From: Lunularia cruciata
Taxonomy: Eukaryota; Streptophyta; Marchantiopsida; Lunulariales; Lunulariaceae
DNA length: 64,000 nt
NCBI GenBank assembly: GCA_948567375.1
Contig: OX419755.1
Span: 77,646,931 to 77,710,930, forward strand
Direction: 5' to 3'
Shown: piece after piece, positions 24,661 to 46,335 of the stretch
How positions within the stretch are numbered: the stretch's first letter is position 1
How the letters are laid out: every line of letters starts with the position of its first letter
Program-made: the position numbers and the translations under genes
The notes under the pieces: generated by a model
Database searches by the model: none
Told to the model about the DNA's origin: nothing
Seen by the model: the letters and a program-made list of their open reading frames with translations, nothing else

Positions 24661-24690
24661 TTTCACTTTGTCCTCAAAGTGAAGGTCTCT

Positions 24691-26784
24691 CTACCTTCTA
24701 TGGTACATCTTCAACTTATCATGGTTAATCCTATCAAAGTGTCTTCCTCCCAACTCCTTGAGATCATAGGTGTAATTGCCCCACACCTTCTCTACTATGA
24801 AAGGTCCAAAGTACTTAGGCAAAAACTTCTTTTGCACTCTCTTGAATCGAATGGAATCAAACAACATTACCCAATCACCTTCTTTGAAAGGCTCCACCTT
24901 CTTCTTGCCTTGCCTCTTGTCAAAGCTCTCCTTTTGTTTCCTTTGGGCTTGCTCCACTCGAACCATAGCAATTGCTCTTGCCTCTTCCAACTCCATGAGT
25001 TGATCCTTCCTTGACTTCCCTGCATCACTTCCTTGTGCTTTCTTCAATCTCCTATGAATGCTTTGGAAGGTAGGAAGATCAAAGTGAATAGGTAAGGTAG
25101 ACTCAATACCATACACCAATTGGAATGGAGAATATCCAGTGGAAGTCTTCATGGTTGTCCTATACTCCCACAAAACTGCATGAATCCTCTTGTCCCAATG
25201 ATGTTTAGCCCCCTCCATTTCTGCATCTTTGGCCAACATCATGCACAAGGTCTGATTGGTTCTCTCTGCCAAGCCATTGGAATTTGGCTTATAGGATGTA
25301 GTTACTCTATGTGTGATAGAGAAATGTCGTAGCATGGCTGTAGTAATGCTTCCTGTAAACTCTCCTCCTCTATCAGAAACCAACTCCAAAGGGCATCCAA
25401 ACCTAGTGATAATGCGTTCATAAAGAAATCTACCCACTTCATCTTCATTCTTGTCCCTCAATGGTCTAGCCTCAACCCACTTGGTAAGGTAATCAGTAAC
25501 TACCACAATGTACCGATTGTTCCTTGGGGTTCTATTGAGAGGTCCTACAAAATCAATTCCCCACTTCTCAAAAGGTCCTAGCAATGGAATTGATCTAAGT
25601 GGTGGAGTGGATGTAGACTTTCTAGCAAAAGCTTGACAAACATGACAAGTTTTGCAATAATCAAGACAATCCTTGAAAATCCCTCTCCAATGGTAACCTG
25701 CATCTAGAATCTTGAAAGCAGTCACCTTTCCTGCAAAGTGTCCTCCACATACTAAACCTTCATGAAACTCCTTTATGAGTAGGATAGACTCTTCCTTACC
25801 CACTGCTCTTCGAAGTAGACCATCTGCTCCTTGGTGAAAAAGAATATCCTCCACCATTGTGTAAGGTCTAGATCTTGCTGCAAGGGCCTTCCTCTCCCTA
25901 GCATGCATCCCTTCTGGATAGTTACCTCTTGTCACAAAATCCACAATCTCCTTGTACTCCATTGGAATCTCTTGAGTGACTGTGATTGTCATGAGCTCCT
26001 CATCCGGGAAGGAATCATCTACTGGCTCATCTCCATCATGATCATAGGCTCTAGATAACAAATCAGCATTTGCATGTTTCTTTCCTAGCCTATCCTCAAT
26101 TGTGTAGTCATACTCAGACAAGAGTATCATCCACCTTGCTAGTCTCCCTTCAACATTAGGCTTGTTGAAGATGTACTTCAAAGCCTTGTGATCCGTGACA
26201 ATTGTGGCTTTCCCTCCAATCAAGTAGTGTCTAAACTTCTTGAGACCAAAGATCACTGCCAACCCTTCTCTCTCTGTGACAGAGTAGTTCTTCTCTGCTG
26301 AAACCATCTGCCTACTAGCATAAGCTATTGGATGATCATGCCCATCTTGGTCTAATTGACTAAGAGTGCATCCTATAGCTATATTAGAAGCATCAGTGTA
26401 GAGGATGAAAGGCTTACTCCAATCAGGTTTAGCAAGAATTGGAGCTACAACAAGGGATTGCTTGAGCTCCTCAAAAGCTTTGAGAGCCTCCTTGTCTTCC
26501 AAAATCACCATGTAATCTACACCCTTCTTCATGTAGATGGTCAATGCATAAGCCTTGTTGGAAAATGAGAAGATGAACCTCCTATAGTACCCAACCATTC
26601 CCAAGAATTGGCGTAACTTTGTCAAGCTTGAAGGGAATGGAAGGTCTGAGATTTTCCTCACCTTCTCAGGATCAACTGCTATTCCATCCTTGGAGATGAT
26701 GTGCCCCAAAAGTAGACCTTCTTCACATCCAAAAATGCACTTCTCTGGGTTGAGTGATGCATTTGCCTCATCCAAGCGTTGCAA
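24691..26784 (-). CDS. A1 pol, 3' part: end of RT, RNase H, integrase
   Basis: 697 codons without a stop. About 1-80: RT connection (CIFGCEEGLLLGHIISKDG, LRQFLGMVGYYRRF). About 125-245: RNase H, with ILYTDAS, VTDHKALKYIF and the closing HANADLLSR. About 330-390: integrase zinc finger (H-x-H side EFHEGLVCGGHF, C-x2-C side CKTCHVC). Then the DDE core with Asp in GIDFVGPL, Asp in LVSDRGGEF and Glu in NGLAERTNQTL. The C-terminal GPF-type module reads KYFGPFIVEKV and the frame ends INHDKLKMYHRR, with no chromodomain. It is separated from the upstream frame only by a one-base deletion near 26786-26796 (A2 has one more base there), so the original product was one gag-pol polyprotein of about 1608 residues. 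Confidence 0.9.
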   Translation of the reverse strand: MQRLDEANASLNPEKCIFGCEEGLLLGHIISKDGIAVDPEKVRKISDLPFPSSLTKLRQFLGMVGYYRRFIFSFSNKAYALTIYMKKGVDYMVILEDKEALKAFEELKQSLVVAPILAKPDWSKPFILYTDASNIAIGCTLSQLDQDGHDHPIAYASRQMVSAEKNYSVTEREGLAVIFGLKKFRHYLIGGKATIVTDHKALKYIFNKPNVEGRLARWMILLSEYDYTIEDRLGKKHANADLLSRAYDHDGDEPVDDSFPDEELMTITVTQEIPMEYKEIVDFVTRGNYPEGMHARERKALAARSRPYTMVEDILFHQGADGLLRRAVGKEESILLIKEFHEGLVCGGHFAGKVTAFKILDAGYHWRGIFKDCLDYCKTCHVCQAFARKSTSTPPLRSIPLLGPFEKWGIDFVGPLNRTPRNNRYIVVVTDYLTKWVEARPLRDKNEDEVGRFLYERIITRFGCPLELVSDRGGEFTGSITTAMLRHFSITHRVTTSYKPNSNGLAERTNQTLCMMLAKDAEMEGAKHHWDKRIHAVLWEYRTTMKTSTGYSPFQLVYGIESTLPIHFDLPTFQSIHRRLKKAQGSDAGKSRKDQLMELEEARAIAMVRVEQAQRKQKESFDKRQGKKKVEPFKEGDWVMLFDSIRFKRVQKKFLPKYFGPFIVEKVWGNYTYDLKELGGRHFDRINHDKLKMYHRR

Positions 26785-29516
26785 GACTTGATTAGGTGCT
26801 CAAAGTGCTCCTCCTTGCTCCCATAGACACAAAAGTCATCAATGAAATCTCTCACAAATTTCCCAATGAAAGGTTCAAATACCTTGTTCATGAACCGTTG
26901 GAATGTGGCTGGAGCATTGCAAAGCCCAAAAGGCATGACCTTGAAAGCGTAAGTTCCCCAAGGTGTGGTGAATGTGGTGAGTTGTTGATGCTCTGGTGCA
27001 ATCTTTATTTGGTTATATCCACTATAACCATCTCCAAAACTGTACCTCTCATGACCTGCAACCTCCTCCAAGATCTCATCAATGAATGGCAATGGGTAGT
27101 AGTCCTTCTTGGTAACAGCATTAAGCTTCTTGTAATCCACACATACCCGAAGCTTGCCATTCTTTTTCTTCACAATGACAATTGGAGACACCCATTCTGA
27201 ATTCTCCACCTCAAAGATAAATCCAGCCTCCTTGAGCTTATCAATCTCCTCCTTCACAACCAAAGATATTGGTGGGCTAATGCGACGTTGCTTTTGGCGG
27301 ATTGGTCTTGCATGGGACTCCACCTCTATCTTGTGCTCCTCCAAGGTGACTTCCTTCAAATCCTTGTAACTAAAAGCAAACACATGGATGAACTTGCGGA
27401 AAATCTCCTCAAATCTCACCTTCTCCTCCTTGGTAACATTTGGGCCATACTTGAGGGTAGATAACCTTCTCTCTACCTCCTCAAGTGTCAATGGTGATTT
27501 ATCGGGGTCCTTCAAAACCTCTGGCTTAGGTGCAAAATCCATAGCACACAAGGGATACACATCTGAATCAGATTCAGATTCATCTTCCTCCGTGGAAGTC
27601 TCCTCTTCCATGCTTGTGTCCACACCTGAAGCTCCTTCTTCAGAATCTGATTCCCAATAATTAGAAGATGGGGTATCTGAATGTGAAGTGTTGGTGGTGT
27701 TAGTCACAGGAACAGTGACTCTATGGTTTGATGGCCCAATCCTCAAGTACCCTTTGTGCCATCGATCAGTTGTGCGTGCTGCTCTCAACCATGGCCTCCC
27801 AAGAAGTAAATCATAGCTTGAATCCTTCAAGACTTGGAAAGTCATGAGATTTTGAACTCCCATAACTGAAACTACCACCTTATCCATCACCCCTACTGGT
27901 CGAACTTGTTGCTTGTTTGCCATGCTCACCACAAATGTTGAAGGTCTTGAGGGTATCATACCCAACTTCTTCATCAACCTTTCTGACATGGCATTCACTG
28001 CTGATCCTCCATCAACCAATGCATTCTTGATGTTGTGACCATTCACTCTCACATCAATCTTGGAGGCATATTCACAAGCCTCCCATGGTGCTGGCTTGGC
28101 ATCCACCACCCCCATTGATACTGGAACTTTTTCCTTCTTCTTCTTTTTGCTCCTTGTAGAACTCAAACCACCTCTAAGCTCCTTTCTCAAGGTAGGGTTC
28201 AAAGCAATTAATTGGCCCACAGTGATGTTAGCCTTGTGACTGCCAACATCCTCCAACACATTGTAGTTCCATTGTTGCTTTGAGATCAAGAAGTCCTCCA
28301 TCCCCAACTTCTTCCTTGGAGTCTTTGTTGTTGATGGTGTTGAGGTGCGAGTGCTCCTAGTAGACATAGGAGTATCCTTGCTTGAAGTAAATCCTTGAGA
28401 AGAGTGAACATCCTCTGCAAAACGAGCTCTCTTCTTCTCTTGTGCCAAAAGCTCCAAATTAAGACCCTTGGAGTTTGAGCACTCTCCCTTCTCATACTTG
28501 CTCTCAACCACATCTATGGATGCTATTCCCTTACCTTTGTTGGGATTAGGAGCCACTTGGGTTTCACTACCTCCCTCTTTCCCTCTATTGGCTCCCTCAT
28601 AACCCCTTCCTCCATGGTAAGTGGAATTTGGGCAATTCCTTTGGATATGGCCTCTTCCTCCACAACCAAAACAATTTCTATCATTGAAATTGTTGGCTGG
28701 TTGGCCTCCTCTATATGGATAGTTTCCATAACTCCTAGGTCCTCTCCCTACATTCTGATCCACCTCTCTCTTCTCCCATAGTTGCACCACATTGATCTTG
28801 AGATCCGCAAGTTGTTCTGTGATGGTTTGGAGTGGATCTTTTGGTGGAGGTGCAAGAATTGGAGCAACTACTACTTGTGGTGCAACCCTTGTCACCAAAG
28901 TATCAGAAGTTCCACCATACTTGTAGCCTTGAGGAGGATGCACAACCTCCTTCACCACCAAATCACTCTCATCCCCTTCCAAACTCTCCTCCATACGAAT
29001 TGCGATCTTGATAGCTTCAACCTTGGAAGAAGGTTTCTCATATCTCACCTTTCTTCTAATTTGTGGTCTCAATCCTCCCACAAAATTCTTGGTGAGCATG
29101 GCCCCTATGCCAATCATTGTAGTCTCCACATCATCCCCACCCTTCCTCAACACTATGCGAAATCTGGACTCCAACTTTTCCACTCTTTCCACATAGACCC
29201 TCACTTTCTCTCCATCTCCTTGCTTGAGAAATGTAACCTCACTCATCAATCTCTCATAACTCTCATCAGGAAGAAAGTTCTCAATGAGTGCTGAAGTCAA
29301 AGTCTCCCAAGACTCCTCTTCCCCCTCTCTCCTCTCTCTCTTTTGGTATTCTGACTCATACCATGTAAGTGCTGCATCCTCAAAGAAATCTGGTAATAAT
29401 GAGGCCCACTCATTCTTCCTCCTCTCATTGTTTCCTATGCAAGCTCTCTTGAAGTCTCTCACAAAGGCCTCCACATCTTCTCCATCCTTGCCAAAGAAAA
29501 CCGGAAGTTTCCCCAT
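26679..29516 (-). CDS. A1 gag-protease-RT, 5' part of the gag-pol polyprotein
   Basis: 945 codons; the last 30 or so are out of frame after the one-base deletion near 26790. About 1-180: Gag capsid-type domain (WYESEYQKRERREGEEESW, then ENFLPDESYERLM). 282-295: zinc knuckle CFGCGGRGHIQRNC (CX2CX4HX4C). 501-577: aspartic protease, with VDGGSAVNAM at the active site (DGG instead of the usual DSG/DTG) and LLGRPWL. From about 770: RT, with WVSPIVIVKKKNGKLRVCVDY, YSFGDGYSGYNQIKIAP, MPFGLCNAPATFQ and the active site FIDD at 891-894. No stop codon interrupts it. Apart from the frameshift this copy looks recently active. Confidence 0.92.
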   Translation of the reverse strand: MGKLPVFFGKDGEDVEAFVRDFKRACIGNNERRKNEWASLLPDFFEDAALTWYESEYQKRERREGEEESWETLTSALIENFLPDESYERLMSEVTFLKQGDGEKVRVYVERVEKLESRFRIVLRKGGDDVETTMIGIGAMLTKNFVGGLRPQIRRKVRYEKPSSKVEAIKIAIRMEESLEGDESDLVVKEVVHPPQGYKYGGTSDTLVTRVAPQVVVAPILAPPPKDPLQTITEQLADLKINVVQLWEKREVDQNVGRGPRSYGNYPYRGGQPANNFNDRNCFGCGGRGHIQRNCPNSTYHGGRGYEGANRGKEGGSETQVAPNPNKGKGIASIDVVESKYEKGECSNSKGLNLELLAQEKKRARFAEDVHSSQGFTSSKDTPMSTRSTRTSTPSTTKTPRKKLGMEDFLISKQQWNYNVLEDVGSHKANITVGQLIALNPTLRKELRGGLSSTRSKKKKKEKVPVSMGVVDAKPAPWEACEYASKIDVRVNGHNIKNALVDGGSAVNAMSERLMKKLGMIPSRPSTFVVSMANKQQVRPVGVMDKVVVSVMGVQNLMTFQVLKDSSYDLLLGRPWLRAARTTDRWHKGYLRIGPSNHRVTVPVTNTTNTSHSDTPSSNYWESDSEEGASGVDTSMEEETSTEEDESESDSDVYPLCAMDFAPKPEVLKDPDKSPLTLEEVERRLSTLKYGPNVTKEEKVRFEEIFRKFIHVFAFSYKDLKEVTLEEHKIEVESHARPIRQKQRRISPPISLVVKEEIDKLKEAGFIFEVENSEWVSPIVIVKKKNGKLRVCVDYKKLNAVTKKDYYPLPFIDEILEEVAGHERYSFGDGYSGYNQIKIAPEHQQLTTFTTPWGTYAFKVMPFGLCNAPATFQRFMNKVFEPFIGKFVRDFIDDFCVYGSKEEHFEHLIKSCNAWMRQMHHSTQRSAFLDVKKVYFWGTSSPRME

Positions 29517-29750
29517 CTTAACCCCTCACTATCTTTTTTTTCTCTTAATTTTTTTTTCTCTTTTCTTTTCTCTCACTCTATTACTAATAGAGTATATACA
29601 TGACTAACACCATCTGAGAATAATCCACTCTAGGGAACACAAAAGGTTCAGGTTGCTCCAAGATTTCTATAGCAACATCAAATCCTAGAGTGCATATTAA
29701 TCTAACTCTCATAGATAGTTTATCCATAAGTTGAAAGATTATTTCCATCA

Positions 29751-30224
29751 CTAATCTTGAGAACTAGCTGATGAAGGTGGTAGTATTTCTGTAGCTGTAC
29801 TAAGACTCTCTCCAAGATCCTTCACCAAAGTTTCCAAAAGTGCTTTTACTCCACTACACTCATGTCCTTTTGGAAGTCATTCAACTCCACAAACCTCACA
29901 CAACTCCTTGGTCTTAGATCTTCTCCCTCCCAATCTTGGTGAAGAAGGTCCAACATGCAAACCCAAGTCAAGTAAGCCTCTCCTTTCCCTCAATCTCTTG
30001 CTCTCAAAGGTTAATGGACATGAACTTGCCTTATGTCCCTTCTCTCCACATAGAAAGCACTTAGACTCACTCTTTCCTCCAAGTGGTGTAGGTTTTTGGA
30101 TCCTCTCAACACTCTCTTCAAATTCTATTGTAAACTCTCTTTTCCTCAAATCCACCCCTACAATCACCTCAAACCCTTGGAGAACCTTGCATAATCTCAA
30201 TTTCCACTCTTGATGACCCTCCAT
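29751..30224 (-). pseudogene. A1 leader ORF: two-zinc-finger protein upstream of gag
   Basis: A 157-codon frame between the primer-binding site and gag, on the same strand. The ATG at 30224 begins MEGHQEWKLRL. Residues 56-69 form a zinc knuckle, CFLCGEKGHKASSC (CX2CX4HX4C); a second Cys/His cluster starts at about 109 (CEVC, and in A2 GLPKGHEC). A VDLRKREFTIEFEESV segment lies before the knuckle. One stop (GGA to TGA, after residue 115) truncates it in A1; A2 keeps the frame open to the same end. The layout resembles the DUF4283/zinc-knuckle proteins of plant non-LTR elements, but that is only an impression. Function unknown; nucleic-acid binding is likely. Confidence 0.6.
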
Positions 30225-31061
30225 GTTCCCAAAGATGAATCTAAACACTCAAACATGCTTTTTGTTGATCTCAAACTTCTCATGCATGAGATCTCCACTC
30301 TGCAGAATTGACCCTTCCTCACAATGTCACTCAAATCTCCCAACGAATATGTCACAGTCCTCTGAAATTTTCCACACTTGATCACAACTCTAGGGCGTCC
30401 CTCCCTGCAAAATTTTAGATCTTTTCATTGAGCCATTTGGCCTAGACACCTTTCTATTCAGCACCCATATTTCAGATTTGGTCTGAAAACCACCCCCCTC
30501 ACTTCAAAAACTGATAACGCACTGCGCAAAAATGATCTCTCTCTAATTTTTGTGGCACCAGGTAGGATACAATGCACTGAATTTTCTTGGAAATTTTCAG
30601 GACAATTCACTAAAAATTGAAGAAATGTCAGACTCTGTACAATTTTCCAGAGAGCATGCAGTTGCGGGAGCACTTTACCCTATCAACTTTCAAAAATTCT
30701 AGCCCAGTGCGCATAGAAGCTCTCTCAATAATTTCAAGTGTGCTAACTGAAAGATAACCCAAGCTATCATGTGTAGAAATCTCAAGTCCAGATCTCAAAC
30801 TTGAGATTTTGCCCAAAATCACCTTAATCCCCAAAATCTGCAATCCACCTCACACAATCTCTCCAATTCCTCTCATGTGTACAAGATGTACAAAATCACC
30901 TCAAAGACATCATAATGAACTACAGGGTATACAAATGGATCTTGGTTCTCTAACATAAGTTCAGCCCTCTCCTCTCCTAATGTTCTCTCCAAGTGAGCTC
31001 TCATAGCCTCCTTCTGCCTAATGTAGAATTGGACGCGGAACATTATCTTGCCTTCTAGAGA

Positions 31062-31080
31062 GGTCCCGGCAACGGAACCA
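31062..31080 (-). other. A1 primer-binding site
   Basis: Five bases inside the 5' LTR the minus strand reads TGGTTCCGTTGCCGGGACC, i.e. TGG followed by a sequence that could pair with the 3' end of a tRNA ending in GGAACCA. A2 has the same site with two changes at 46313-46331. The donor tRNA is not certain; the TGGNNCCGTTGCCGGG core resembles the Asp-type sites of Athila-like plant elements. Confidence 0.65.
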
Positions 31081-31085
31081 AAAAC

Positions 31086-31763
31086 TTGAGCCGGCCTGTC
31101 TCTCACTCAGGATGAACCTCTGATGGCTATTATGGTAGCGCACCATGGACTAAGAAGGCAAGGAACCCCAACTCCATCATACTCCTCCAAGGCTAACACT
31201 CCAAGACTCAAGACATTGCTCACTAGAGAACTCAATGAGAGAGAGATAGTTGCAAATGAAAGGATGATGAGTACCTCCTCACTCCTTGTTTATATACTTG
31301 TGAAATAGTTACGTACCAAAGTTACTAATTACCGTAGTAACTCAAGTTACTAGACTAAAAGTCAAGTAAAGTCAAAAAGTAGAAAGGAATATCCATTCAC
31401 ATGGGCATATTCCCCTTATCTTGACCCAACCACTAAAGCAAGGATTCCTTCACATGGGCTATCCTTGGACTAAAGAAGAATCCAAAACAAAAAGGCTTGC
31501 GGGCCCAAGAGTTCTCAACTCTTTCCCCAAAGCCAAACACCTAGGAATAATACCAAGTCAACACACTAAAATCCAAAATAGTGGTGCTCATCTTTTCTAC
31601 TTCCTCTAAAGTAAGGTCCCATCTATCTTAGCTATGACTAACTTTAGCTAACCATGACTAACATAGAACCATCCTTTATCTCTATATAAATAATATATCT
31701 TAAGTACTTGTAATACCAAGCTAAATATCACAATACCACACACATGCACAAATGGGTGTTACA
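31086..31763 (-). repeat. A1 5' LTR
   Basis: 678 bp, nearly identical to the 3' LTR; the inner end has TTGAG where others have TGTGAG. A TATA box in the element's sense lies at 31289-31296 (TATATAAA on the minus strand), with downstream sequence suitable for the transcript start. It ends ...GGGTGTTACA at 31763. Confidence 0.9.
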
Positions 31764-33929
31764 GTCCAAACTCCAACGGTAACCCAATCCCATGATATGT
31801 AATGGGTGTAATTGTGACGTATGAGCATTGAATGATGCTTTAACTTGGTCACAAACCACACATTTGGCAACAAATTGCTGTACCTTGGTCTACATCCCGT
31901 GCCACCAATAATGACTCTAGAGTAAGCTATATGTACGCCTAACTCCAAAATGTCCTAGCTCCTCATGAGCATGACGGACCAATTGTGGTCTCTGAGATGG
32001 AAGTGGTACTACTTGCACTCTACCATCCTCCCATACATGCAAAAGGTGTCTGCCTTCCAATCTAAACCGTTTGGCTTGCTGAAGGACACAATCTCTCTCC
32101 TTGGCCCCAACTGTGCCACCCACAACACTAGTGCAAAGATAGTCCATCACTAAGACATCATCATGAATGTCTCGCTGAACTATACCAATATCTTCACTCT
32201 TTGGATCTTTGACCTCAATAACTCCTCCTGTATGCACTGAGAGAGATACCACCAAAGCCTCTGCAAATATATATAGAAAGGCCAATGCATGCCAACCTGG
32301 CACCATCTCCTCATCTGTCTCACCATGCCAACGTGCTCCAGTTTGATCCTGCTAGTTGGGACATGGGTTTCTACTCAACCCATCTACATCACGGTTCACC
32401 ACTCCAAGTCTATGAACAACCATGAAATCATACTCTTGTAAAATTAGAGCCCATTGTGCAAGCTTCCTTAAAAGCTTGTCAGACTCCATCAACCACTTCA
32501 GCGGCTAATGATCAGTGATTAGAGTGAATGGGTTACCAAATAGGTAACATCAGAAATGTGCTCCTGCCCAAACTGCTGCCAAGCACTCTCCCTCATAAGA
32601 ACTATACTTAGCCTCCGCTAAATTGTTGGAGTGACTAGCATAGGCCACCATAAACTCCTTCCCCTCATAATCATGATGGGTGAGCACCGCTCCAAGCCCT
32701 TACATACTCCAATCAGTATGAACCTAAAATGGTCGTCCTCTGATTGGTCTCCTCAAAATAGGAGCAGATGTCAACCTCTCCTTGAGCTCTACAAAGCTCT
32801 CTCCTGCTCATCTCCCCAACACTACTCATGTGTAAGCTTGGTATGCTTTGTCAAGGCCTTGGCAATGGCACTAAATCCTCTAACATAGCGGCAATAGAAG
32901 TTCGCCAACCCAAGGAATGCTTGCACTCTGCTCACATCTGTAGGCCACGGAATACATTCAATAGCCTCCACCTTGGTCTACTAAACACCAAGTCCTCCGG
33001 GGTAGATAGTGTGGCCCAAATACTCAACCTGCTCATGGAAGAACCTACACCTCCAAAGATGTAATTTGAGTCCATGAGATCTCAACCTCTCAAACACCTC
33101 CAACAACTGTCTCTCATGCTCCTCCACAATAATGCTATAGACCAAAATGTCATCAATATAGCACCAAGCAAAATCCAATCCAGCTAGGGTCTTATCCATG
33201 ACCCTCTAGAACTCAATAGGAGTGTTCTTCAACCCAAATGGTAAGAACCTCCACTGATATAACACATCCTTGCCGTGAGGATCAATAGCCTAAAATGTTG
33301 TCTTGGACTTATTCTCCTCCCTGATCGGCAACTGATGATATCTTGCTCAAGGATCCAAAGTACTGAAGACCTTTGCATGCCCAATCTCATCAATAATCTC
33401 CTCCGGTGTAGGCATGGCATACCGATCAGCACTAGTCTATCGGTTGATAGGACGGTAATCTCCACACATCCGCCTATCTATGTAGTTGCCATGCATATCC
33501 TTCTTGGCTGGCATCACTATCGCTGATGCATACTCTCCATGTGAAATCTCCACCAAACTAGCCTCAAAAAGGTCACTACTCCGGCTTTGAATCAATGTCC
33601 TCTCCATCTCACTATATTGATAAGGACGTCAGAAAACTGGTGTATCGCTAGTCAGCTCAATCGGCATACCAGGTCCTTTCAAAACAACTTGTGTGACTCC
33701 TCAAGAACCTTCAAACCCTCCATCTTTCCTCTCTTGTAAGCTTGGGTCCAAGATCTGGCTCGCAAGTATCCTCTATAATTGTCGTAAGAGTGGAAGACAT
33801 ACTGACTAGCTGCTACATTAGGCCCTTGGGAGCAATAGTATCATGCTCCTAACCTCTAGAAGTCCCAACCTTTGTGTGAAAAACTCCCTCCACTCTGGCT
33901 ACAAGCTCTACACATCCTCTAGCTACATC
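31764..33929 (-). pseudogene. B1 RT, RNase H and integrase zinc finger
   Basis: Read on the minus strand from about 33.9 kb down. The RT region includes a palm motif in which the active site YIDDILVYS is intact (frame 33199-32981), followed by SHGLKLHLWRCRF and FFHEQVEYLGHTI. The RNase H region follows. Then, from 32306 to 31917, comes the link to integrase and the zinc finger (LVRHAHEELGHFGVRRTYSL). Several stops (mostly TAG) and frame changes break it. The outer B copy has the same order at 60421-62801. The frame runs up to 31764, where A1 interrupts it; the integrase core resumes at 23963. Confidence 0.75.
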
Positions 33930-34608
33930 CTATGTGGACCAAGAGTGTAATCCAAGTAGCCCACGGTCACCTGGATGGACTCCAAGTAGACCACTCTCCC
34001 TAGTAGCTAATGGCTGTGTCCCAAGAAAACCATGTCCACTTGGTCCATCGCCCCCAGCATGTACCTGAATCATCTCGATAAGCACAGGGCTCACAAGTGT
34101 CCGAGTGGTGATGCCTATCAAGCGCATACTATGTTGCTCTACCAAGCCAAGGCTCACAATCCAGGTCAAACAATTTAGGTCCATAGCCTGACCTAACACC
34201 TGGATGCCTTTGACACTGCTGGAACAGCGGTAATACCGGTGCAAAAACCCATTGTCCACTCTCTCTCATCAGCATTGGGCTCCACCAACTGCTGTAACTG
34301 TGAGTCCCAAAAAAAGTCTAGGTCCTCCCTCTTGAAAAGCATGAGAGCTTGGGAAACTCATGAGTGTGGGAAATGCAGCTCTAGGATGTCCAACTAGGTT
34401 CACCACTGCCATAGGTGACCTATCAGCCCCTACCACTGTCGAAGACTGACGCCCAACATCCAAGATATCATCAACAAGGATGTGGTCAAGTCGCTGAATC
34501 CCATCATAAGCACGCTGTAAAACCTCTCTGGGTAAGAGGTTCATCTACCAAAGACAAAGATCATAAGCCCGTGATCCCACTCTGGCTGCATCTAACAATA
34601 CAGTAGGT
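33930..34608 (-). pseudogene. B1 cytosine methyltransferase, C-terminal half
   Basis: On the minus strand the sequence continues from the ENV-containing half (38502-39187) across the C1 insertion. It reads VLLDAARVGSRAYDLCLW, a stop, then MNLLPREVLQRAY (outer copy WWTNLLPREV), LVDDILDVG, MAVVNLVGHPRAAFPTLMSF, and finally VLGQAMDLNCLTWIVSLG at about 34200-34150. The RAY/WW-TN block and the closing LGQAM block sit where C5-methyltransferase motifs VIII and X are expected. A linker then leads to RT. Stops and a frameshift inactivate it. Assigned by motif order, not by a database search. Confidence 0.68.
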
Positions 34609-34613
34609 CCCAT

Positions 34614-37600
34614 TGTGGTACCCACATTTTTTTGGTTTTTTTTGAAATGGAGAAGAAGAAGTGTATAGAGAAGTCGGATTGCGTCTATATGGCCAAAGAA
34701 GGCAAAGAAAAGAGTCTTCAAGATGAAACCCAAGGTAACATGGCTTTGGGTCATAAGGCAAAGTACTCGGAATTGCCTTGTCAGCATACAACCCAAAGTA
34801 AGGAGTCTTTGTATCGGGGGTGTTCAACCCAAGGCAAGGACATTGTAACAACTTTCCTTTGGGGTGAGAGATTCAAGAAGGGACCGTTCAAAAATGGCAG
34901 CTATATGCATGAAGGACACTTGACAATGGCAGGAGCATGCAAGAGGTGTGATTTCTTGGTAGAAACTTGAATTGAAGAGAGACAATAAAGGTGCAACTCT
35001 ATAAAAATCGGGCTAAAGATGAAGCAATGACAAGCAATTTTCCTTTGCCGTTAATAAGTCATCCTGCAGGAGATCATGGGAATGGAAGTAGAGTCAAAGA
35101 TGCGTTGGTGTGTAGAGGAGAATTTGAGAGAGCTAATCTGGGAGTCTATAGGAAGAATAGTCCCCAGCCCAATGAAGAAGAAAGAAAGATGGGAGGAGGG
35201 AAGAAGAACTCCGAATTCATAGTGAGAAATCATTCAATTCGGAGGTTAGATGTGATCGCAAGAATTGAAGTCTTGAGCAGACTTTGGATCACATTCTTGG
35301 CGTGGAACTGGAATGTGAGCTTTCCAAGGTTCATGACTGAGATAATCAAGAGTAGATGTCTTGATGGCCCCAAGGAAGAGGGGAAGAGAGGTAATCAAGC
35401 TTGATGGATGGAGTTGGATTGGAGATTAGTACTCGGAAGAGAAGTAGGTGTGGAGCATGGTGCTATGTTCTTGGGGAAGGGAGAGGTAGCAGAAGAAACC
35501 CAAGAGGTGAGAGATGCTTTCTCTTTGAATCACATGAAGAATGGATACAAAGTAGAGAGTTACAAGGATCCTGTCAAGCAAGGGATCATGAGTGCTCTAA
35601 TGGTGATCTTGAAGCTGGAGAGAATGACTTATGTGATGAAGCACCAAGCGGTGTTCTTCCATAAGATGTTTGCAGGAGACCCGATTAACTAGGCAAAGTG
35701 CTTTCATGGGCAAACACAAAAGATGGTGTGGAATTTGTGGGATAAATTGCCTCCGCATTACATTGTGCCGTTTGCATCGCATTTTTATCTGGAGCTGAAC
35801 TTGCTCAATGCGGTGGAGCGCAACAGAATGGTGTTGCATTTCCATCCCAATTTAAGGAAGGAGGTTGACGTGGAGGAACAGTAGTACATTCTTCAGATCA
35901 GGAGCAGCGATGAGTACTATGCGCAGACGGGGAAGAGTGTGCAGTTGGACGTGAGTACTCCAAAGTCAAAGAAGAGGAGTCAACAAGGAGAGGGAGAAGA
36001 TGTTGAGAAAATAGGACCTCGGAAGACCAGAAGGGTAAACCCGAGGAAAGGTATGATGGTAATCGCATCATTGGAGGAAGGATTGGAGGGCAAAGCCAAG
36101 TGCAAGTCCGAAGACTCGGAAAGAGAAGAAAAATCCGATCTCACATTGCAGAGTGGAGACATGAGTAGTGATAACGATGATGGAGGAGAGATGATATTGG
36201 TACCCAAAGAAGAAGAAGCCAGGATGGAGATAGAGGAGGAAAGTAATGCGAAGTTAGAAGATGAAGTGCCAAAGCAGGAAGAGAGACAAGTTACCATTCA
36301 AAAAGAAGTTTGTTCTAGGGAAAAGGCAAAGTGTGAAGCAGGGCCAAGCAAGGTAAGAGAAGAGCAGAATGCAAGTTCAGGAAGTGAAGCATCTATTCCA
36401 ATATGACAGTTGCAGCTAAGAAGGCGAGTATCAAGAGAAGAAGAGGTGAAGGAGGAGATCACTCCGCAAGTCAAAGTAGCCACGAGTGAAGGAGTGGAGT
36501 ACTTGCGGGAGGTTCTGTGTCCCTTATTGGTGAAGTTAGAACACATGAAGAAGGAGATCCAGTCAAAGTGTCCGGAGGTGAAGATTGTGTTGCAGGTGTT
36601 GGGCCGATTAGAAAAAGAGAACTCGGAATTGAAGAAGAGTATAATCCAAGGTGAGGAGGAAAAGGAAGTACTATAAGTAGATGCAATGATACAGAATCAA
36701 GTGATTGAGAATTTGAAGAGAGAAGCAAGGAATCGAGAGGAACTCATAGAGCAAAGTGACATAGCAAGGGATAGACAAGTAGTTGAGTATGAAATCCTGA
36801 AGCAACAGTTTGCTGACTCAAGATTAGAGATTATCCATGCTTTGGCAAGAGTAGCCAAGAAGGAACAAGAGCTCGATAGGGTGATGGAGAGTGTAGAAGA
36901 GAAGAAGCAGTTGTGGCAACAAGAGTTGACAGTGCGGTATAGAGAAGAAGAGAGGTTGAGAGAGTTACTTCACAATCAGGAGGAGAAGATTGTACAAAAG
37001 GAGAAGGAGAAGGAGGCTATGAAAGCCGAGTTTGAAGCAAAATTGGCAATGTACCAAGAAGATTGGCTTGCAAATCAAGAACAGGAGAGGAAAATGAAGG
37101 AGATCATAATCAGGATGAATGCAATGTTGAGTATAGAGGCCAGTGTGCATATCAAAGAGACAAGGCTACATGAGTTGAAGTTGTTGGTGTAGGAGACGAA
37201 GAGGAGACATGCAAAGGACAGAGACTTGAATGCTTTGTTGATCAGTCTAAGAACTTGTGTAGATAGGAAGATATTGGAAGTAAAAGACAATATCACAATT
37301 AGATTAGACTTAGTAAAATTAGAGATAGATAAACTTCGGAAGGATGTTAGAGCAAAAACCAAAGTAGATGAAGTAGGAGTGCAGATGTCTTCAGAGTTAC
37401 CATTGGAGACATTAGAGAAGAGTGAGTCAAGAGATAAGGAGTTAGATAGATTACCTACTAGTGAAATTATAGGATAGGGCAAAAAGCTCAAAAATTATTA
37501 TTTTTTTCCCGGCTGTCGTGATATGCTGAATTGTCCCTGCATCCGCAGACAAAAAAAAAGGTAAAAGAAAATCAGGAAAAAGAACTGTTAGATTTGGTAG

Positions 37601-38496
37601 AGGATGTAGGAGTTATGAAACCCAAGGATAGAGTAGTAGGAAGTAAAGTTACTTCAGGTTCGGGTTTGAAAGGCGAGGAAGAAGTAGACATTGGATCGGA
37701 TTAGTAACAGATTTGAGATTTGAAGAGGCAAATATGAAGAGGTGCATTGTCATTTTGGATCTACAGGTTTGTAGAGTTGTTAGGAAATAGAATAGTTGTT
37801 AGAACTATCGTTTGCTTCACTATTTAAGATTGGCATTTGCAGGAAATTTTTGTTCAGTGCTCATAATTTCTGAGAATAGATAAAGCAAAGTGTTGTGAAG
37901 CAGTGCTTGTCACTTGAGCTTGATTCCAAGTATCAACTTTGTGTTTGTGTTTGTGAGTGTTGGGAGAATTTCAAAGTGCAAGTCAATGTGCTTGTTGGAT
38001 GTTGGATTCCATAGCCTTGATCTTCATTGTGTGTTTGATCCTGATTGAAGTGCAATCAAAGCAATGCCTTGACAGATTTGAGAGGAATTGTAGTGTTGGT
38101 AGTATTCTGCATTTGTAAGTGCAACACAAAGTTGATGTGAAGCAATTTTGATCAAGGAAGTTGTGCCTTCAGTGAAGGGGTGGAACACAATTCTGAGGCA
38201 AAGTCATTTTGCAGTGAAGTGTCATTTTTGGGAGAGCCTAAATCATCACAATCAAGATTGTTTGGAAAGATTTGATGGAATTGTGATTAAGGAGTGTTCC
38301 TTCATGACAAGATTGCAAATCATTGCTTGTTACTCTACTCTGGGTGTACTTTCTACCTGAGAGATTAAAAATGCAACCAAGAAAAAGTACATTGTGACAT
38401 TTGACTTTGTATTAGGACATTTCTGACTTGTATCTCTACGGGAACAAACTTCACTTTCCTGATTACTGCAAAAGTGATATTTTTTGGGTTGTCACA
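34614..38496 (+). mobile_element. Family C element C1, complete, with 5-bp target duplication
   Basis: 3883 bp. Starts TGTGGTACCCACATTTTT, ends GATATTTTTTGGGTTGTCACA. Flanked by a perfect duplication CCCAT (34609-34613 and 38497-38501). The uninterrupted outer B copy shows the empty site (at about 59634-59641), so the borders are exact. The first 400 bp and last 1000 bp share no repeat, so there are no LTRs. The only terminal similarity is inverted and short: TGTGGTACCCA versus TGTGACAACCCA. It contains one long frame, a TATA-like TATAAAAAT at 35000-35008 just before it, and about 0.8 kb of 3' non-coding sequence with a TATTTAAG motif near 37823. Confidence 0.85.
35027..37704 (+). pseudogene. 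Family C protein (C1), one frame with nonsense codons only
   Basis: From ATG 35027 the frame is continuous to 37477 (817 codons) without a frameshift. In-frame stops are at 35402 (TGA), 35690 (TAG, Trp in C0), 35882 (TAG, Gln in C0), 36404 (TGA, Arg in C0), 36674 (TAA, Gln in C0) and 37190 (TAG). About 1-60: basic N-terminus. About 60-300: conserved core (FIVRNHSIRRLDVIARIEVL, WRLVLGRE, PPHYIVPFASHFYL). About 300-460: acidic, Ser/Glu/Lys-rich linker. From about 460: long Glu/Lys/Gln coiled coil. After 37477 an 80-bp insertion relative to C2 precedes a tail ending EEEVDIGSD at 37704. No catalytic motif seen; family unknown. A structural or nucleic-acid-packaging (Gag-like) role is possible but unproven. 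Confidence 0.7.
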
Positions 38497-38501
38497 CCCA
38501 T

Positions 38502-39187
38502 CCAAGAATGGACCTGAGGTGTACTTGCCACCACTCTGGTGCAAGAATCACCCATCAAAGGAACATTCTCCAAAAGGTAAGCTAGAGAAACGGATTGATG
38601 AACTTAGAGATGTCGTAGTATTCGTAACATCTCCCAAAACACACCAAAATGAGGATTCTAAAGACCCAAACCACGGCCCACAGGTGTATGTCCCTAACAT
38701 GGCCATCTAGAAATCACCAAGTGAATAGGCCCATGTCTCTCTAGGTCATGCGCTCCCAATAAGGAAATATCTACTGGTATGGCCTTCTAGTAACCTCTAA
38801 CTACTGACATCGGTAATAACTCCGGATACCGATGGGCCAAGTGTGCCACATGATGTAGAAAGACTTGCCTAGTAGTCTCATCTCTCTCTACATACAAGTA
38901 CCTTTGTACTTGTATACCCGCCTGTAATACCGTAGCTAGTCCGATGCTAATCCCACCAAACAACTCCAATAGACATATCTCCTCTACTGGATACTGCCAA
39001 GCAATGAGTGAGGTATCCAGAGGTATCAAAGCAATCGCCTTTGGAGACTCATCCTCACACTCATCTCTTGATGGTACAAAGGCTCCACTCCAAGCCTGTT
39101 GCACCAGCTGATGTGCATGCTGTTGCAACACCTCCTTGGAACTCCACAATGGAACATCCAAGGTGGATGGAACAATCCCACTTGTAT
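38502..39187 (-). pseudogene. B1 cytosine methyltransferase, N-terminal catalytic half
   Basis: The minus-strand frame from 39187 gives TLDVPLWSSKEVLQQHAHQL, then at about 38973-38935 LLELFGGISIGLA (motif I, AdoMet binding), then RYLYVERDETTRQV (motif II-like acidic residue), LERHGPIHLVI, and at 38702-38694 P-C-stop (motif IV PCQ with CAG changed to TAG). It continues to LLENVPLMGDS with ENV (motif VI) at 38570-38562, and ends at the C1 target site. The order I-IV-VI matches C5-cytosine methyltransferases, in which the PCQ Cys is the nucleophile and ENV binds the target base. Further stops (TAG, TAA) are present. A2 interrupts the upstream side at 39188. Confidence 0.78.
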
Positions 39188-39880
39188 TGTGAGCCAACCT
39201 GTCTCTCACTCAAGATGAACCTTTGATGGCTATTATGGTAGCGCACCATGGACTAAGAAGGCAAGGAACTCCAACTCCATCATACTCCTCCAAGGCTAAC
39301 ACTCCAAGACTCAAGACATTGCTCACTAGAGAACTCAATGAGAGAGAGATAGTTGCAAATGAAAGGATGATGAGTACCTCCTCACCCCTTGTTTATATAC
39401 TTGTGAAATAGTTACGCACCAAAGTTACTAATTACTAGAGTAACTCAAGTTACTAGACTAAAAGTCAAGTAAAGTCAAAAAGTAGAAAGGAATATCCATT
39501 CACATGGGCATATTCTCTTAAGCATGTGGTCTTATCTTGACCCAACCACTAAGTCAAGGATTCCTTCACATGGGCTATTCTTGGACTAAAGAAGAATCCA
39601 AGACAAAAAGGCTTGCCGGCCCAAGAGTTCTCAACTCTTTCCTCAAAGCCAAACACCTAGGAATAATACCAAGTCAACACACTAAAATCCAAAATAGTAG
39701 TGCTCATCTTTTCTACTTCCTCTAAAGTAAGGTCCCCCTCTATCTTAGCTATGACTAACTTTAGCTAACCATGACTAATATAGAACCATCCTTTATCTCT
39801 ATATAAATAATATCTCTTAAGTACTTGTAATACCAAGCTAAATATCACAATACCACACACATGCACAAATGGGTGTTACA
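39188..39880 (-). repeat. A2 3' LTR
   Basis: 693 bp, TGTGAGCCAACC...GGGTGTTACA. Carries a short segment (GCATGTGGTCTTATC near 39522) also present in the A2 5' LTR and the solo LTR but deleted in both A1 LTRs. Confidence 0.88.
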
Positions 39881-39928
39881 TTTACCCCTGGACTAAGTTT
39901 TCACTTTGTCTTCAAAGTGAAGGTCTCT

Positions 39929-42900
39929 CTACCTTCTATGGTACATCTTCAACTTATCATGGTTAATCCTATCAAAGTGTCTTCCTCCCAACTCCTTGAG
40001 ATCATAGGTGTAATTGCCCCACACCTTCTCCACTATGAAAGGTCTAAAGTACTTAGGCAAAAACTTCTTTTGCACTCTCTTGAATCAAATAGAATCAAAC
40101 AACATTACCCAATCACCTTCCTTGAAAGGCTCCACCTTCTTCTTGCCTTGCCTCTTGTCATAGCTCTCCTTTTGTTTCCTTTGGGCTTGGTCCACTCAAA
40201 CCATAGCAACTGCTCTTGCCTCTTCCAACTCCATGAGTTGTTCCTTCCTTGACTTCTTTGCATCACCTCCTTGTGCTTTCTTCAATCTCCTATGAATGCT
40301 TTGGAAGGTAGGAAGATCAAAGTAAATAGGTAGGGTAGACTCAATACCATATACAATTGAAATGGAGAATATATGGTGGAGGTCTTCATGGTTGTCCTAT
40401 ACTCCCACAATACTGCATGAATCCTCTTGTCCCAATGATGTTTAGCCCACTCTATTTCTACATCTTTGGCCAACATCATGCACAAGGTCTGATTGGTTCT
40501 CTCTGCCAAGCCATTGGAATTTGGCTTATAGGATGTAGTTACTCTATGTGTGATAGAGAAATGTTGTAGCATGGCTATAGTAATGCTTCTTGTAAACTCT
40601 CATCCTCTATCAAAAACCAACTCTAAAGGGCATCCAAACCTAGTGATAATGCATTCATAAAGAAATCTACCCACTTCATCTTCATTCTTGTCCCTCAATG
40701 GTCTAGCCTCAACCCACTTGGTAAGGTAATCAGTAACTACCACAATGTACCAATTGTTCCTTGGGGTTTTAATGAGAGGACCTACAAAATCAATTCCCCA
40801 CTTTTCAAAAGGTCCTAGCAATGGAATTGATCTAAGTGGTGGAGTGGATGTAGACTTTCTAGCAAAAGCTTGACAAACATGACAAGTTTTGTAATACTCA
40901 AGACAATCCTTGAAAATCCTTCTCCAATGGTAACCTGCATCTAGAATCTTGAAAGCAGTCACCTTTCCTGCAAAGTGTCCTCCACATACTAAACCTCCAT
41001 GAAACTCCTTTATGAGTAGGATAGACTCTTCCTTACCCACTGCTCTTTGAAGTAGACCATCTACTCCTTGGTGAGAAAGAATATCCTCCACCATTGTCTG
41101 GGCCTAGATCTAGGTCTAGATCTTGCTGCAAGGGCCTTCCTCTCCCTAGCATGCATCCCTTTTGGATAGTTACCTCTTGCACAAAATCCACAATCTCCTT
41201 GTACTCCATTGGAACCTCTTGAGTGACTGACATTGTCATGAGCTCCTCATCTGGGAAGGAATCATCCCCTTGCTCTTTTCCATCATGATCATAGGCTCTA
41301 GATGACAAATAAACATTTGCATGTTTCTTTCTTGGCCTATCCTCAATGGTGTAGTCACACTCAGACAAGAGTATCATCCACCTTGCAAGTCTCCCTTCAA
41401 CATTAGGCTTGTTGAAGATGTACTTCAAAGCCTTGTGATCTGTGACAATGGTGGCTTTCCCTCCAATCAAGTAGTGTCTAAACTTCTTGAGACCAAAGAT
41501 CACTACCAACCCTTCTCTCTCTGTGACTAAGTAGTTCTTCTCTGCTGAAACCATCTGCCTACTAGCATAAGCTATTGGATGATCATGCCCATCTTGGTCT
41601 AATTGACTAAGAGTGCATCCTATAGCTACATTAGAAGCATTAGTGTAGAGGATGAAAGGCTTACTCCAATCAGGTTTAGCAAGAATTGGACCTACAACTA
41701 GGGATTGCTTGAGCTCCTCAAAAGCTTTGAGAGCCTCCTTGTCCTCCAAAATCACCATGTAATCTACACCCTTCTTCATGTAGATGGTCAATGCATAAGC
41801 CTTGTTGGAAAATGAGAGATGAATCTCTTATAGTATCCAACCATCCCCAAGAATTGGCATAACTTTGTCAAGCTTGAAAGGAATGGAAGGTCTGAGATTT
41901 TCCTCACCTTCTCAAGATCAACTGCTATTCCATCCTTGGAGATGATGTGCCTCAAAAGTAGACCTTCTTCACATCCAAAAATGCACTTCTTTGGGTTGAG
42001 TGATGCATTTGCCTCATCCAAGCATTGCAAGACCTTAATAAGGTGCTCAAAGTGCTCCTCCTTGCTCCCATAGACACAAAAGTCATCAATGAAGTCTCTC
42101 ACAAATTTCCCAATGAAAGGTTCAAATACCTTGTTCATGAACCGTTGGAATGTGGCTGGAGCATTGCAAAGCCCAAAAGGCATGACCTTGAAAGTGTAAG
42201 TTCCCCAAGGTGTGGTGAATGTGGTGAGTTGTTGATGCTCTGGTGCAATCTTGATTTGGTTATATCCACTATAACCATCTCCAAAACTATACCTCTCATG
42301 ACTTACAACCTCCTCCAAGATCTCATCAATGAATGGCAATGGGTAGTAGTCCTTCTTGGTAACAACATTGAGCTTCTTGTAATCCATACATACCCGAAGC
42401 TTGCCATTCTTTTTCTTCATAATGACAATTGAAGACACCCATTTTGAATTCTCTACCTCAAAGATAAATCCAACCTCCTTGAACTTATCAATCTCCTCCT
42501 TCACAACCAAAGATATTGGTTGGCTAATGCAACATTGTTTTTGGCGGGTTGGTCTTGCATGTGACTCCACCTCTATCTTGTGCTCCTCCATGGTGACTTC
42601 CTTCAAATCCTTGTAACCAAAAGCAAAAACATGAATGAACTTGTGGAAAATCTCCAAAAATCTCACCTTTTCCTCCTTGGTAACATTTGGGCCATACTTG
42701 AGGGTAGCTAACCTTCTCTCTACCTCCTCAAGTGTCAATGGTGATTTATCTGGGTCCTTCAAAACCTCTGGCTTAGGTGCAAAATCCATAGCACACAAAG
42801 GATAAACATCTAAATCAGATTCAGATTCATCCTCCTCCGTGAAAGTCTCCTCTTCCATGCTTGTGTCCACACTTGAAGCTCCTTCTTCAAAATCTGATTC

Positions 42901-44767
42901 CCAATAATCAGAAGATGGTGTATCTGAATGTGAAGTGTTGGTGGTGTTAGTCACAAGAACTGTGACTCTATGGTTTGATGGCCCAATCCTCAAGTACCCT
43001 TTGTGCCATCGATCAGTTGTGCATGCTGCTCTCAACCATGGCCTCCCAAGAAGTAAGTCATAGCTTGAATCCTTCAAGACTTGGAAAGTCATGAGATTTT
43101 GAACTCCCATAATTGAAACTATCACTTTATCCATCACCCCTACTGGTCAAACTTGTTGCTTGTTTGCCATGCTCACCACAAATGTTGAAGGTCTTGAGGG
43201 TATCATACCCAACTTCTTCATCAACCTTTCTGACATGGCATTTACTGCTGATCCTCCATCAACCAATGCATTCTTGATGGTGTGACCATTCACTCTCACA
43301 TCAATCTTGGAAGCATATTCACAAGCCTCCCATGGTGATGGCTTGGCATCCACCACCCCCATTAGTACTGGAGCTTTTGCCTTCTTCTTCCTCTTGCTCC
43401 GTGTAAAACTCAAACCACCTCTAAGCTCCTTTCTCAAGGTAGGGTTCAAAGCAATCAATTGGCCCACTATGATGTTAGCCTTGTGACTACCAACATCCTC
43501 CAACACATTGTAGTTCCATTGTTGCTTTGAAATCAAGAAATCCTCCATCCCCAACTTATTCCTTGGAGTCTTTGTTGTTGATGATGTTGGTTGAGGTGCG
43601 AGTGCTCCTTGTAGACATAGGAGTATCCTTACTTGGAGTAAATCCTTAAGAAGAGTGAACATCCTCTGCAAAACAAGCTCTCTTCTTCTCTTGTGCCAAA
43701 AGCTCCAAATTAAGACTCTTGGAGTTTGAGCACTCTCCCTTCTCATACTTACTCTCCACCACATCTATGGATGCTATCCCCTTACCTTTGTTTGGATAAG
43801 GAGCCACTTGGGTTTCACTACCACCCTCTTTCTCTCTATTGGCTCCCTCATAACCCCTTCCTCCATGGTAAGTGGAATTTGTGCAATTCCTTTGGATATA
43901 GCTTCTTCCTCCACAACCAAAACAATTTCTATCATTGAAATTGTTGGTTGGTTGACCTCCTCTATATGGATAGTTTCCATAAATCCTAGGCACTCTCCCT
44001 ACATTTTGATCTACCTCTCTCTTCTCCCATAGTTGCACCACATTGATCTTGAGATCCGCAAGTTGTTCTGTGATGGTTTGAAGTGGATCCTTTGGTGGAG
44101 GTGCAAGAATTGGAGCAACTACTACTTGTGGTGAAACCCTTGTCACCAAAGTATCAGAATTTCCACCATACTTGTATCCTTGAGGAGGATGCACAACCTC
44201 TTTCACCACCAAATCACTCTCATCCCCTTCCAAACTCTCCTCCATACGAATTGCAATCTTGATAGCTTCAACCTTGGAAGAAGGTTTCTCATATCTCACC
44301 TTTCTTCTAATTTGTGGTCTCAACCCTCCTACAAAATTCTTGGTGAGCATGGCCCCTATGCCAATCATTGTAGTCTCCACATCATCCCCACCCTTCCTCA
44401 ACACTATGTGAAATCTAGACTCTAACTTTTCCACTCTTTCCACAAAGACTCTCACTTTCTCTCCATCTCCTTGCTTGAGAAATGAAACCTTGTGCATCAA
44501 TCTCTCATAACTCTCATCAGGAAGAAAGTTCTCAATGAGTGCTGAAGTCAAAGTCTCCCAAGACTCCTCTTCCCCATCTCTCCTCTCTCTCTTTTGGTAT
44601 TCTAGCTCATACCATGTAAGTGCTGCATCCTCAAAGAAATTTGGTAATAATGAGGCCCACTCATTCTTCCTCCTCTCATTGTTTCCTATGCAAGCTCTCT
44701 TGAAGTCCTTAAAAAAAGCCTCTACATCTTCTCCATCCTTGCCAAAGAAAACCGGAAGTTTCCCCAT
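39929..44767 (-). pseudogene. A2 gag-pol, broken by several frameshifts and stops
   Basis: Starts MGKLPVFFGKDGEDVEAF at 44767, like A1. Gag with a damaged zinc knuckle (CFGCGGRSYIQRNC: the His is Tyr) lies in 44767-43646. A frame change near 43.7 kb leads to the protease region (VDGGSAVNAM) to 43147. RT with FIDD intact lies in 43137-41788, RNase H in 41791-41033 (ILYTNAS, with Asp changed to Asn), and integrase in 41094-40282. Each border is an indel or stop relative to A1. The loss of catalytic residues shows it no longer encodes a working polyprotein. Confidence 0.85.
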
Positions 44768-45002
44768 CTTAACCCCTCATTATCTTTCTTTTCTCTCAAT
44801 TTCTTTTCTCTTTTCTTTTCTCTCACTCTATATAACTAATAGAGTATATACATGACTAACACCATCTGAGAATAAACCACTCTAGGGAACACAAAAGGTT
44901 CAGTTGGCTCCAAGATTTCTATAGCAACATCAAATCCTAGAGTGCATCTTAATCTAACTCTCATGGATAGTTTATCCATAAGTTGAAAGATTATCTCCAT
45001 CA

Positions 45003-45476
45003 CTAATCTTGAGAACTAGCTAATGAAGGTGGTAGTATTTCTATAGCTGTACTAAGACTCTCTCCAAGATCCTTCACCAAAGTCTCCAAAATTGCTTTTA
45101 CTCCACTACACTCATGTCCTTTTGGAAGTCCTTCCACTCCACAAACCTCACACAACTCCTTGGTCTTAAATCTTCTCCCTCCTAATCTTGGTGAAGAAGG
45201 TCCAACATGCAAACCCAAGTCAAGTAAGCCTCTCCTTTCCCTCAATCTCTTTCTCTCAAAGGTCAATGGACATGAACTTGCCTTATGTCCTTTCTCTTCA
45301 CATAGAAAGCACTTAGACTCACTCTTTCCTCCAAGTGGTGTAAGTTTTTGGATCCCCTCAACACTCTCTTCAAATTCTATTGTAAACTCTCTTTTCCTCA
45401 AATCCACCCCTTCAATCACCTCAAACCCTTGGGGAACCTTGCATAGTCTCAATTTCCACTCTTGGTGACCCTCGAT
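45003..45476 (-). pseudogene. A2 leader ORF: two-zinc-finger protein, start codon lost
   Basis: Same 158-codon length (stop included) as in A1 and open throughout, but the start position reads ATC (IEGHQEWKLRL) instead of ATG. Zinc knuckle CFLCEEKGHKASSC, second cluster CEVCGVEGLPKGHEC, ending PPSLASSQD. An open frame of equal length in an older, otherwise frameshifted copy suggests the ORF was under selection in the source elements. Confidence 0.6.
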
Positions 45477-46312
45477 ATTCCTAAGATGAATCTAAACACT
45501 CAAATATGCTTTTTGTTGCTCTCAAAACTCCTCATGCATGAGATCTCCACTCTGAAGAATTGACCCTTCCTCACAATTTCACTCAGATTTCTCAACTAGT
45601 ATGTGACAGTCCTCTGAAATTTTTCACACTTGATCAAAACTCCATGGTGTCCTTTCTTACAAAATTTCAAATCTTTTCATTGAGCCATTTAGCCTATACA
45701 CCTTTCTATTCAGCACACATATTTCAGATTTGGTCTGAAAACCACTCCCTTCACTTCAAGAACTCATACCTCCCTGCCTAAAAATAATCTCTCTCTAATT
45801 TGTGTGGCAGAAAGTAGGATACAATGCGCTGAATTTTTTTGGAAATTTTCAAGAAAATTCATTGAAAATTGAAGAAATGGCAGACTTTGTACAATTTTCC
45901 AGAGAGCATGCAATTGCGGGAGCAATTTACCTTATCAACTTTCAAAAATTCTAACCAGTGTGCATAATAGCTCTCACAATAATTTCAAGTGTGAAAACTG
46001 AAAGATAACCCAAGCTATTATGTGTAGAAATTTCAAGTCCAGATCTCAAACTTGAGATTTTGCCCAAAATCACCTTAATCCCCAAAATCTATAATCCACC
46101 TCACACAATCTCTCCAATTCCTCTCATGTGTACAAGATGTACAAAATCACCTCAAAGACATCATAATGAACTATAGGGTATACAAATGGATCTTGGTCCT
46201 CTAACATAAGTTCAGCCCTCTCCTATCTTAATGTTCTCTCCAAGTGAGCTCTCATAGCCTCCTTTTGCCTAATGTAGAATTGAATGCAGAACATTATCTT
46301 GCCTTCTAGAGA

Positions 46313-46331
46313 GGTCTTGGCAACGGAACCA
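46313..46331 (-). other. A2 primer-binding site
   Basis: Minus strand TGGTTCCGTTGCCAAGACC, four bases inside the 5' LTR; differs from the A1 site at two positions, both consistent with G-to-A change. Confidence 0.6.
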
Positions 46332-46335
46332 AAAA

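Follow-up and report, generated by a model that had tools for sequence, protein, structure and literature searches.

The LTR of MMTV, an animal retrovirus, encodes the superantigen Sag, and the LTRs of plant retrotransposons are usually treated as non-coding control regions. According to a survey of fifteen plant species, the median LTR length is 552 bp, and LTR length has been linked to the ratio of solo to complete elements (Du et al. 2012, cited in PMC7251063). Additional ORFs of plant retrotransposons are placed between pol and the 3' LTR in a review on these elements (PMC7264820), in whose text the wordings “within the LTR” and “in the LTR” are absent. For Diaspora, the published description gives a tRNA-Asp PBS 5 bp after the LTR, as in Calypso, no env-like ORF and a pol ending 128 bp before the PPT (PMC1142308). 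The matches listed for LTR-encoded proteins in our literature search, which covered titles and abstract openings with most subscription journals outside its range, include papers on a mussel element and on MMTV; no plant LTR encoding a conserved protein was among the matches listed, by which we do not claim its absence from print.

The 64-kb window, meaning the whole stretch of Lunularia cruciata DNA analysed, contains several copies of a repeat, termed C, which the original prediction described as a mobile element without LTRs. This description fits each window copy taken for itself and fails for the family, since what each copy represents is a single LTR. That C would turn out to be the LTR of a larger retrotransposon had been named in the prediction as a refuting finding, and for its title claim this finding has been made. 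We are highly confident in the joint reading that C is the 3.5–3.9 kb LTR of a locally very abundant 13–14 kb Ty3/gypsy element, probably Athila-like, that the copies C1, C2 and C4 are solo LTRs, and that an ORF located in U3 has been under selection. Being a Ty3/gypsy LTR, the mobile element does not represent a new class; a protein-coding plant LTR is new as far as the literature searched extends.

The complete copies comprise C1 (34614..38496, plus strand, 3883 bp, TGTGG...GTCACA), C2 (55929..59459, plus strand, 3531 bp) and C4 (48591..52331, minus strand, 3741 bp). C1 lies between two CCCAT duplications at 34609..34613 and 38497..38501 (no strand assigned), while C2 and C4 are flanked by TTGGC and CAACA, respectively, so that a 5-bp TSD accompanies 3/3 complete copies. 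Their ends are of the TG...CA type, the C2 terminus reading TGTCCCA versus TGTCACA in C1. When one duplication was removed and the flanks were joined, gap-free empty sites of 156–160 bp were found in other copies of host repeat D within the window, at 59711–59552 for C1 (88.8 %), 38755–38600 for C2 (84.6 %) and 21639–21482 for C4 (81.0 %). The three insertions are therefore real, which confirms the exact borders and perfect duplications claimed for them. The previously named partial copies C0 and C5 likewise stand: C0 (18001..20136, minus strand) is an LTR fragment covering C1 positions 224–2360, and C5 (62802..63612, plus strand) is the 5' part of an LTR within the integrase region of host repeat D. 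C5 is broken up by a sixth copy, C6 (63613..64000, minus strand), which has one border inside the window and represents the 3' terminus of a different LTR that apparently inserted into C5.

The TG..CA-type termini of C, its short TSD and the enclosed ORF would also suit a cut-and-paste DNA transposon of the Ginger-like kind, one of three origins offered in the original prediction. However, terminal direct or inverted repeats of C were not above shuffles in six tests, with 16 to 84 of 200 shuffles scoring as high. Neither did 8 and 33 protein pieces searched against Pfam match any transposase or DDE family, and gag-pol is flanked by C copies, as described in the following, which leaves a DNA transposon with practically no probability.

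The longer RT-containing relative next to C, whose search had been proposed as a check, was found in a 200-kb sample of the same genome (contig labelled C1, loci L002–L021). This sample holds 41 C termini, comprising 24 3' ends and 17 5' ends. A PBS-like sequence, TG(A/C)TTTTTGGYRYYRCTGCY, directly follows 5/24 of the 3' ends and a PPT, CA(A/C)ATTTGAGGGAGGRYGTA, directly precedes 2/17 of the 5' ends; 19 3' ends lack the PBS and 15 5' ends the PPT, five of each belonging to TSD-bounded solo copies. Two internal regions extending from PBS to PPT measure 6157 and 6132 bp and are 81.7 % alike. Ten pieces of them were scanned against Pfam, yielding matches to gag, RT, RNase H and the integrase zinc-binding domain and none to a second RNase H. 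By eye only, the core of the integrase and a protease-like DLGSG motif were recognized, in pieces without such a Pfam match. A LARD or TRIM, whose internal region is devoid of gag-pol, had been considered as well and was ruled out by the four matched domains.

One of these elements, E2, carries mutually best-matching C copies on both sides: the best match longer than 1500 bp of its 5' LTR (187036–183286 of the 200-kb stretch) is its own 3' LTR with 92.1 % over 3074 bp, and the next-best match in the 200 kb reaches 88.9 % over 1808. The 3' LTR of E2 is cut at its 3' end, and the LTRs of a further element, E3, are truncated and 80 % alike. In element E1 (129956–141032 of the 200-kb stretch, L014–L016), the 5' LTR is nearest to the C4 subfamily, whereas its 3' counterpart is nearest to that of C1, and the two are 76 % alike; judging from these affinities, E1 is probably a recombinant between elements. 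None of the elements found in the 200-kb sample combines full length, two complete LTRs and a TSD, E1, E2 and E3 each being imperfect. Ten end pairings were tried in the 200 kb, five of which, one nested inside another, have identical 5-bp flanks and represent further solo LTRs like the window copies; the flanks are not identical in the remaining five, of which two are mispairings and three include an end next to a PBS or PPT. The LTRs cover 36 % of the 200 kb and the internals 15 %. The density of C along the genome is highly variable, with C matches spanning about 87 % of 10 kb at 60.0 Mb of the contig labelled C1 and neither a C nor an internal match in 40 kb at 20.0 Mb of the contig labelled C2, which served as control.

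These data also bear on the second of the proposed origins, a self-contained non-autonomous element mobilized in trans by a gypsy integrase and lying next to gag-pol by chance. All three TSD-bounded window copies are free of internal sequence, and the share of the 200 kb taken up by C is more than double that of the internal region, both of which such an element would explain. This explanation is already contradicted by the recurrence of the same PBS-like sequence and the same PPT at the C ends, as well as by the matching C copies on both sides of E2, and the C family has an integrase region of its own. Furthermore, the duplications of G, the other gypsy family of the window, look 4 bp instead of 5 bp in length, with GTCC at G1 and a G2 site that is gap-free at 4 bp; this is weak evidence as the G2 flanks are not identical and the G1 empty site has a deletion. 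Mobilization in trans is thus very unlikely, and from the three options only the solo copies of a giant coding LTR withstood the comparison, as PBS, PPT and gag-pol lie between C copies.

The LTR contains an ORF of about 850 codons, located in the presumed U3 of C1 (35027..37704, plus strand) and running from an ATG at C1 position 414 to a TAG at 3089–3091. In the window, the start codon is ATG in C1, C5, C2 and C4 and GTG in C0, and the TAG stop is shared by C1, C2 and C4; across 8 sequences compared, the start is ATG in 6/8, GTG in C0 and AAG in the E2 5' LTR; all 6 sequences that extend to the stop have TAG there. In C1 versus C4, codon position 3 differs by 0.55 versus 0.31 and 0.31 at the other two over approximately the first third of the protein (p 1.6e-9), while codon periodicity is absent from the 3' 770 bp (p 0.97), where the subfamilies are still about 80 % identical. 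The Nei-Gojobori omega for C2 and C4 over the ORF is 0.29, and two shifted control frames gave 0.87 and 1.02. Omega lies at 0.14–0.25 in 24/28 pairs of the 8 sequences, and the four pairs with higher values are the closest ones, namely C1–C0 (0.33), the LTR pair of E2 (0.37) and fragment S115 against each LTR of that pair (0.31 and 0.40). The one frame of about 845 codons that the original prediction saw conserved in two subfamilies is hence borne out by both the codon and the dN/dS tests.

Because transitions dominate, neutral simulations were run with the observed substitution spectrum for four pairs with 60 runs each, and their mean omega amounts to 0.54–0.64. Between elements, the observed omega of 0.15 (C1 versus E2 or S44) faces neutral means of 0.62–0.64 and was reached in 0/60 runs in either case; likewise, the 0.33 of C1–C0 was reached in 0/60 runs. 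The approximately 850-codon frame is under purifying selection between elements. The LTR pair of E2, with its omega compared to a neutral mean of 0.54 and 2/60 simulations as low, lies at the low edge of neutrality and is not a clean neutral result, roughly fitting selection between insertions and little afterwards.

None of the copies examined has an intact ORF. Between C1 positions 463 and 2860, C1 has 6, C0 4, C2 12 and C4 13 in-frame stops, and the longest open piece in the window is found in C0 with 267 codons (19081–19881). In-frame stops in every copy counted, together with the lack of a relative in the databases searched, would be in line with C being an LTR and the ORF a mere passenger, that is a captured host or element gene without a role for the element. 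Against this, the ORF occurs in both subfamilies and in all 8 compared sequences, and its high synonymous and low non-synonymous divergence speaks for long-term selection across many rounds of transposition, so that we consider a passenger improbable, though less so than the two origins discussed above. Following the preferred reading of a selected ORF, such selection means that the spread of the element benefits from the protein. The C1 ORF additionally has an insertion of ~95 bp near C1 position 2862 (window 37475–37570) with an A-rich run at its end, and the 25 bp spanning the start of this insertion are identical to window positions 12709–12733.

Downstream of the ORF, the 3' part of the LTR (37705..38496, plus strand) is conserved at ~80 % between the subfamilies and non-coding, and presumably contains promoter, R and U5. 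A TATA-like box, TATTTAA, is located at 37821..37827 on the plus strand, 117 bp past the C1 ORF stop and 676 bp before the LTR end. It is the only TATA-like motif, of those scanned, at the same aligned position in C1, C2 and C4, and occurs 5 times in the window on both strands together. In the 200-kb sample, it is exact in 19/28 copies versus a mean of 35 % for surrounding 7-mers, and ranks 22nd, not first, of 197 windows by conservation, which is supportive of a promoter and not decisive. The LTR may accordingly be laid out as the ORF in U3, followed by the TATA-like box and about 650 bp of R-U5, where the borders and the promoter use are predicted from these motifs. Within C positions 3100–3883, C1, C2 and C4 are about equally similar, though their ORFs represent two distant subfamilies, and this equal similarity suggests either that 3' modules have been exchanged or that constraint is strong.

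In E1 and E2, the last sense frame on the integrase side terminates at a TGA inside ATTTGAGGGAGG, a dozen bases from the LTR. As the pol stop falls inside the PPT, no gene fits between pol and the LTR, an env-like ORF is not present there in either element, and the extra ORF starts at C1 LTR position 414. The extra gene, which relatives keep between pol and the 3' LTR, would in this way have ended up inside the LTR. On balance, we lean towards the view that the placement of the PPT moved this gene into U3, giving a conserved protein of ~850 residues encoded in both LTRs and left behind in solo LTRs, a layout like that of MMTV. The element is arranged as LTR–PBS–gag–(protease)–RT–RNase H–integrase–PPT–LTR, and in the proposed mechanism its genomic RNA would start past the TATA-like box and run through gag-pol into the 3' LTR. 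The ORF could then be translated from an RNA covering the 3' LTR, either the genomic RNA or a shorter one, and reverse transcription would copy U3 including the ORF into both LTRs in each round. Recombination between the two long LTRs of one element would finally generate solo LTRs such as C1, C2 and C4.

The C element resembles MMTV in having a sense ORF in the presumed U3 that is present in both LTRs, and differs from it as a plant retrotransposon with a larger ORF whose predicted fold matched no viral model. With the plant retrotransposons carrying additional ORFs, as described in the review (PMC7264820), it shares an extra sense ORF downstream of pol, but the ORF of C lies in the LTR. If the proposed layout is true, the many solo LTRs would constitute a dispersed family of the ORF gene that could act in trans, either on the element itself or on its host. 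Coding sequence can also reside in solo LTRs, and a 3.7-kb LTR with a selected gene changes repeat annotation, as it could be misread by gene finders and by repeat finders alike. A coding LTR moreover offers a way, open to testing, for retroelements to bring an extra gene into U3.

The lineage of the C element is probably Athila-like, based on the order of gag-pol, the lack of a Pfam second RNase H in the ten pieces and the tRNA-Asp type of the PBS, features in which it resembles Athila, Calypso and Diaspora. Its PBS begins 7 bases after the LTR and was assigned by eye at 5 junctions, using the published Diaspora description and the tRNA end. Relatives of this group other than Diaspora differ in having an env-like ORF beyond pol, whereas the pol of the C element ends inside the PPT and its extra ORF is within the LTR.

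Pieces of the ORF protein (4 C pieces, 8 pieces and 33 pieces) gave no match above chance in Pfam, and an 8-row profile matched no PDB sequence. Searches of its N-terminal part in 5.8 billion proteins, whose word-based first step has limited sensitivity, let none of 135 and none of 478 candidates pass, the second length range admitting full-size proteins. This miss is informative, since G retrieves plant retroelement proteins from the same database. AlphaFold2 gave a useless model from 8 rows (mean pLDDT 39.1) and a modest, mostly helical one from 33 rows (mean pLDDT 60.5), for which Foldseek found no match with E below 2 among PDB entries or viral models; the profile and structure comparison suggested for this protein hence returned no relative. 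The coiled coil of the original prediction is at most faintly indicated, with a lag-7 correlation of no more than 0.13 in a crude heptad test of 7 segments. Since no transmembrane-like stretch occurs in the 7 ORF segments tested, an env-like role is not favoured, and our best guess for the product is an accessory protein, or a protein of the particle, expressed from the 3' LTR. A suspected likeness of the N-terminus to the Pfam “plant transposon protein” domain was dropped for lack of Pfam support.

Host repeat D, into which C1, C2 and C4 inserted, is an old, decayed Ty3/gypsy element whose pieces match RNase H and integrase in Pfam, and carries two inserted, nearly complete copies of gypsy G, G1 and G2 (23964–31763 and 39188–47027). 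A solo LTR of G without matching duplication (20136–20818) lies beside another D copy. The G LTR has its TATA box at 468 of 677 bp, and the named relatives of G pol in the protein database include yew, liverworts, apple, grape and PITA labels read as pine. No tRNA genes are present in the window, and Rfam gave one sub-threshold chance match in 31772–39190. Near 2.4–7.8 kb of the window lies what we take to be an LNK-like gene, with no Pfam match; together with the relatives of G, this gene content places the window in a land plant.

DNMT genes in retrotransposons have been described for charophytes and dinoflagellates (PMC5890265). Frames of host repeat D at 38790–39209 (minus strand) and 55076–55771 (plus strand) contain the motif LLELFGG(I/T)SIGL. 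By eye these frames presumably resemble the start of a cytosine-5 DNA methyltransferase, for which Pfam gave no match in them. A further repeat, E, of 0.4–0.6 kb is missing from one D copy, between 47664 and 47665, and is found in or next to three others at 17423–17969, 22490–23054 and 54360–54796.
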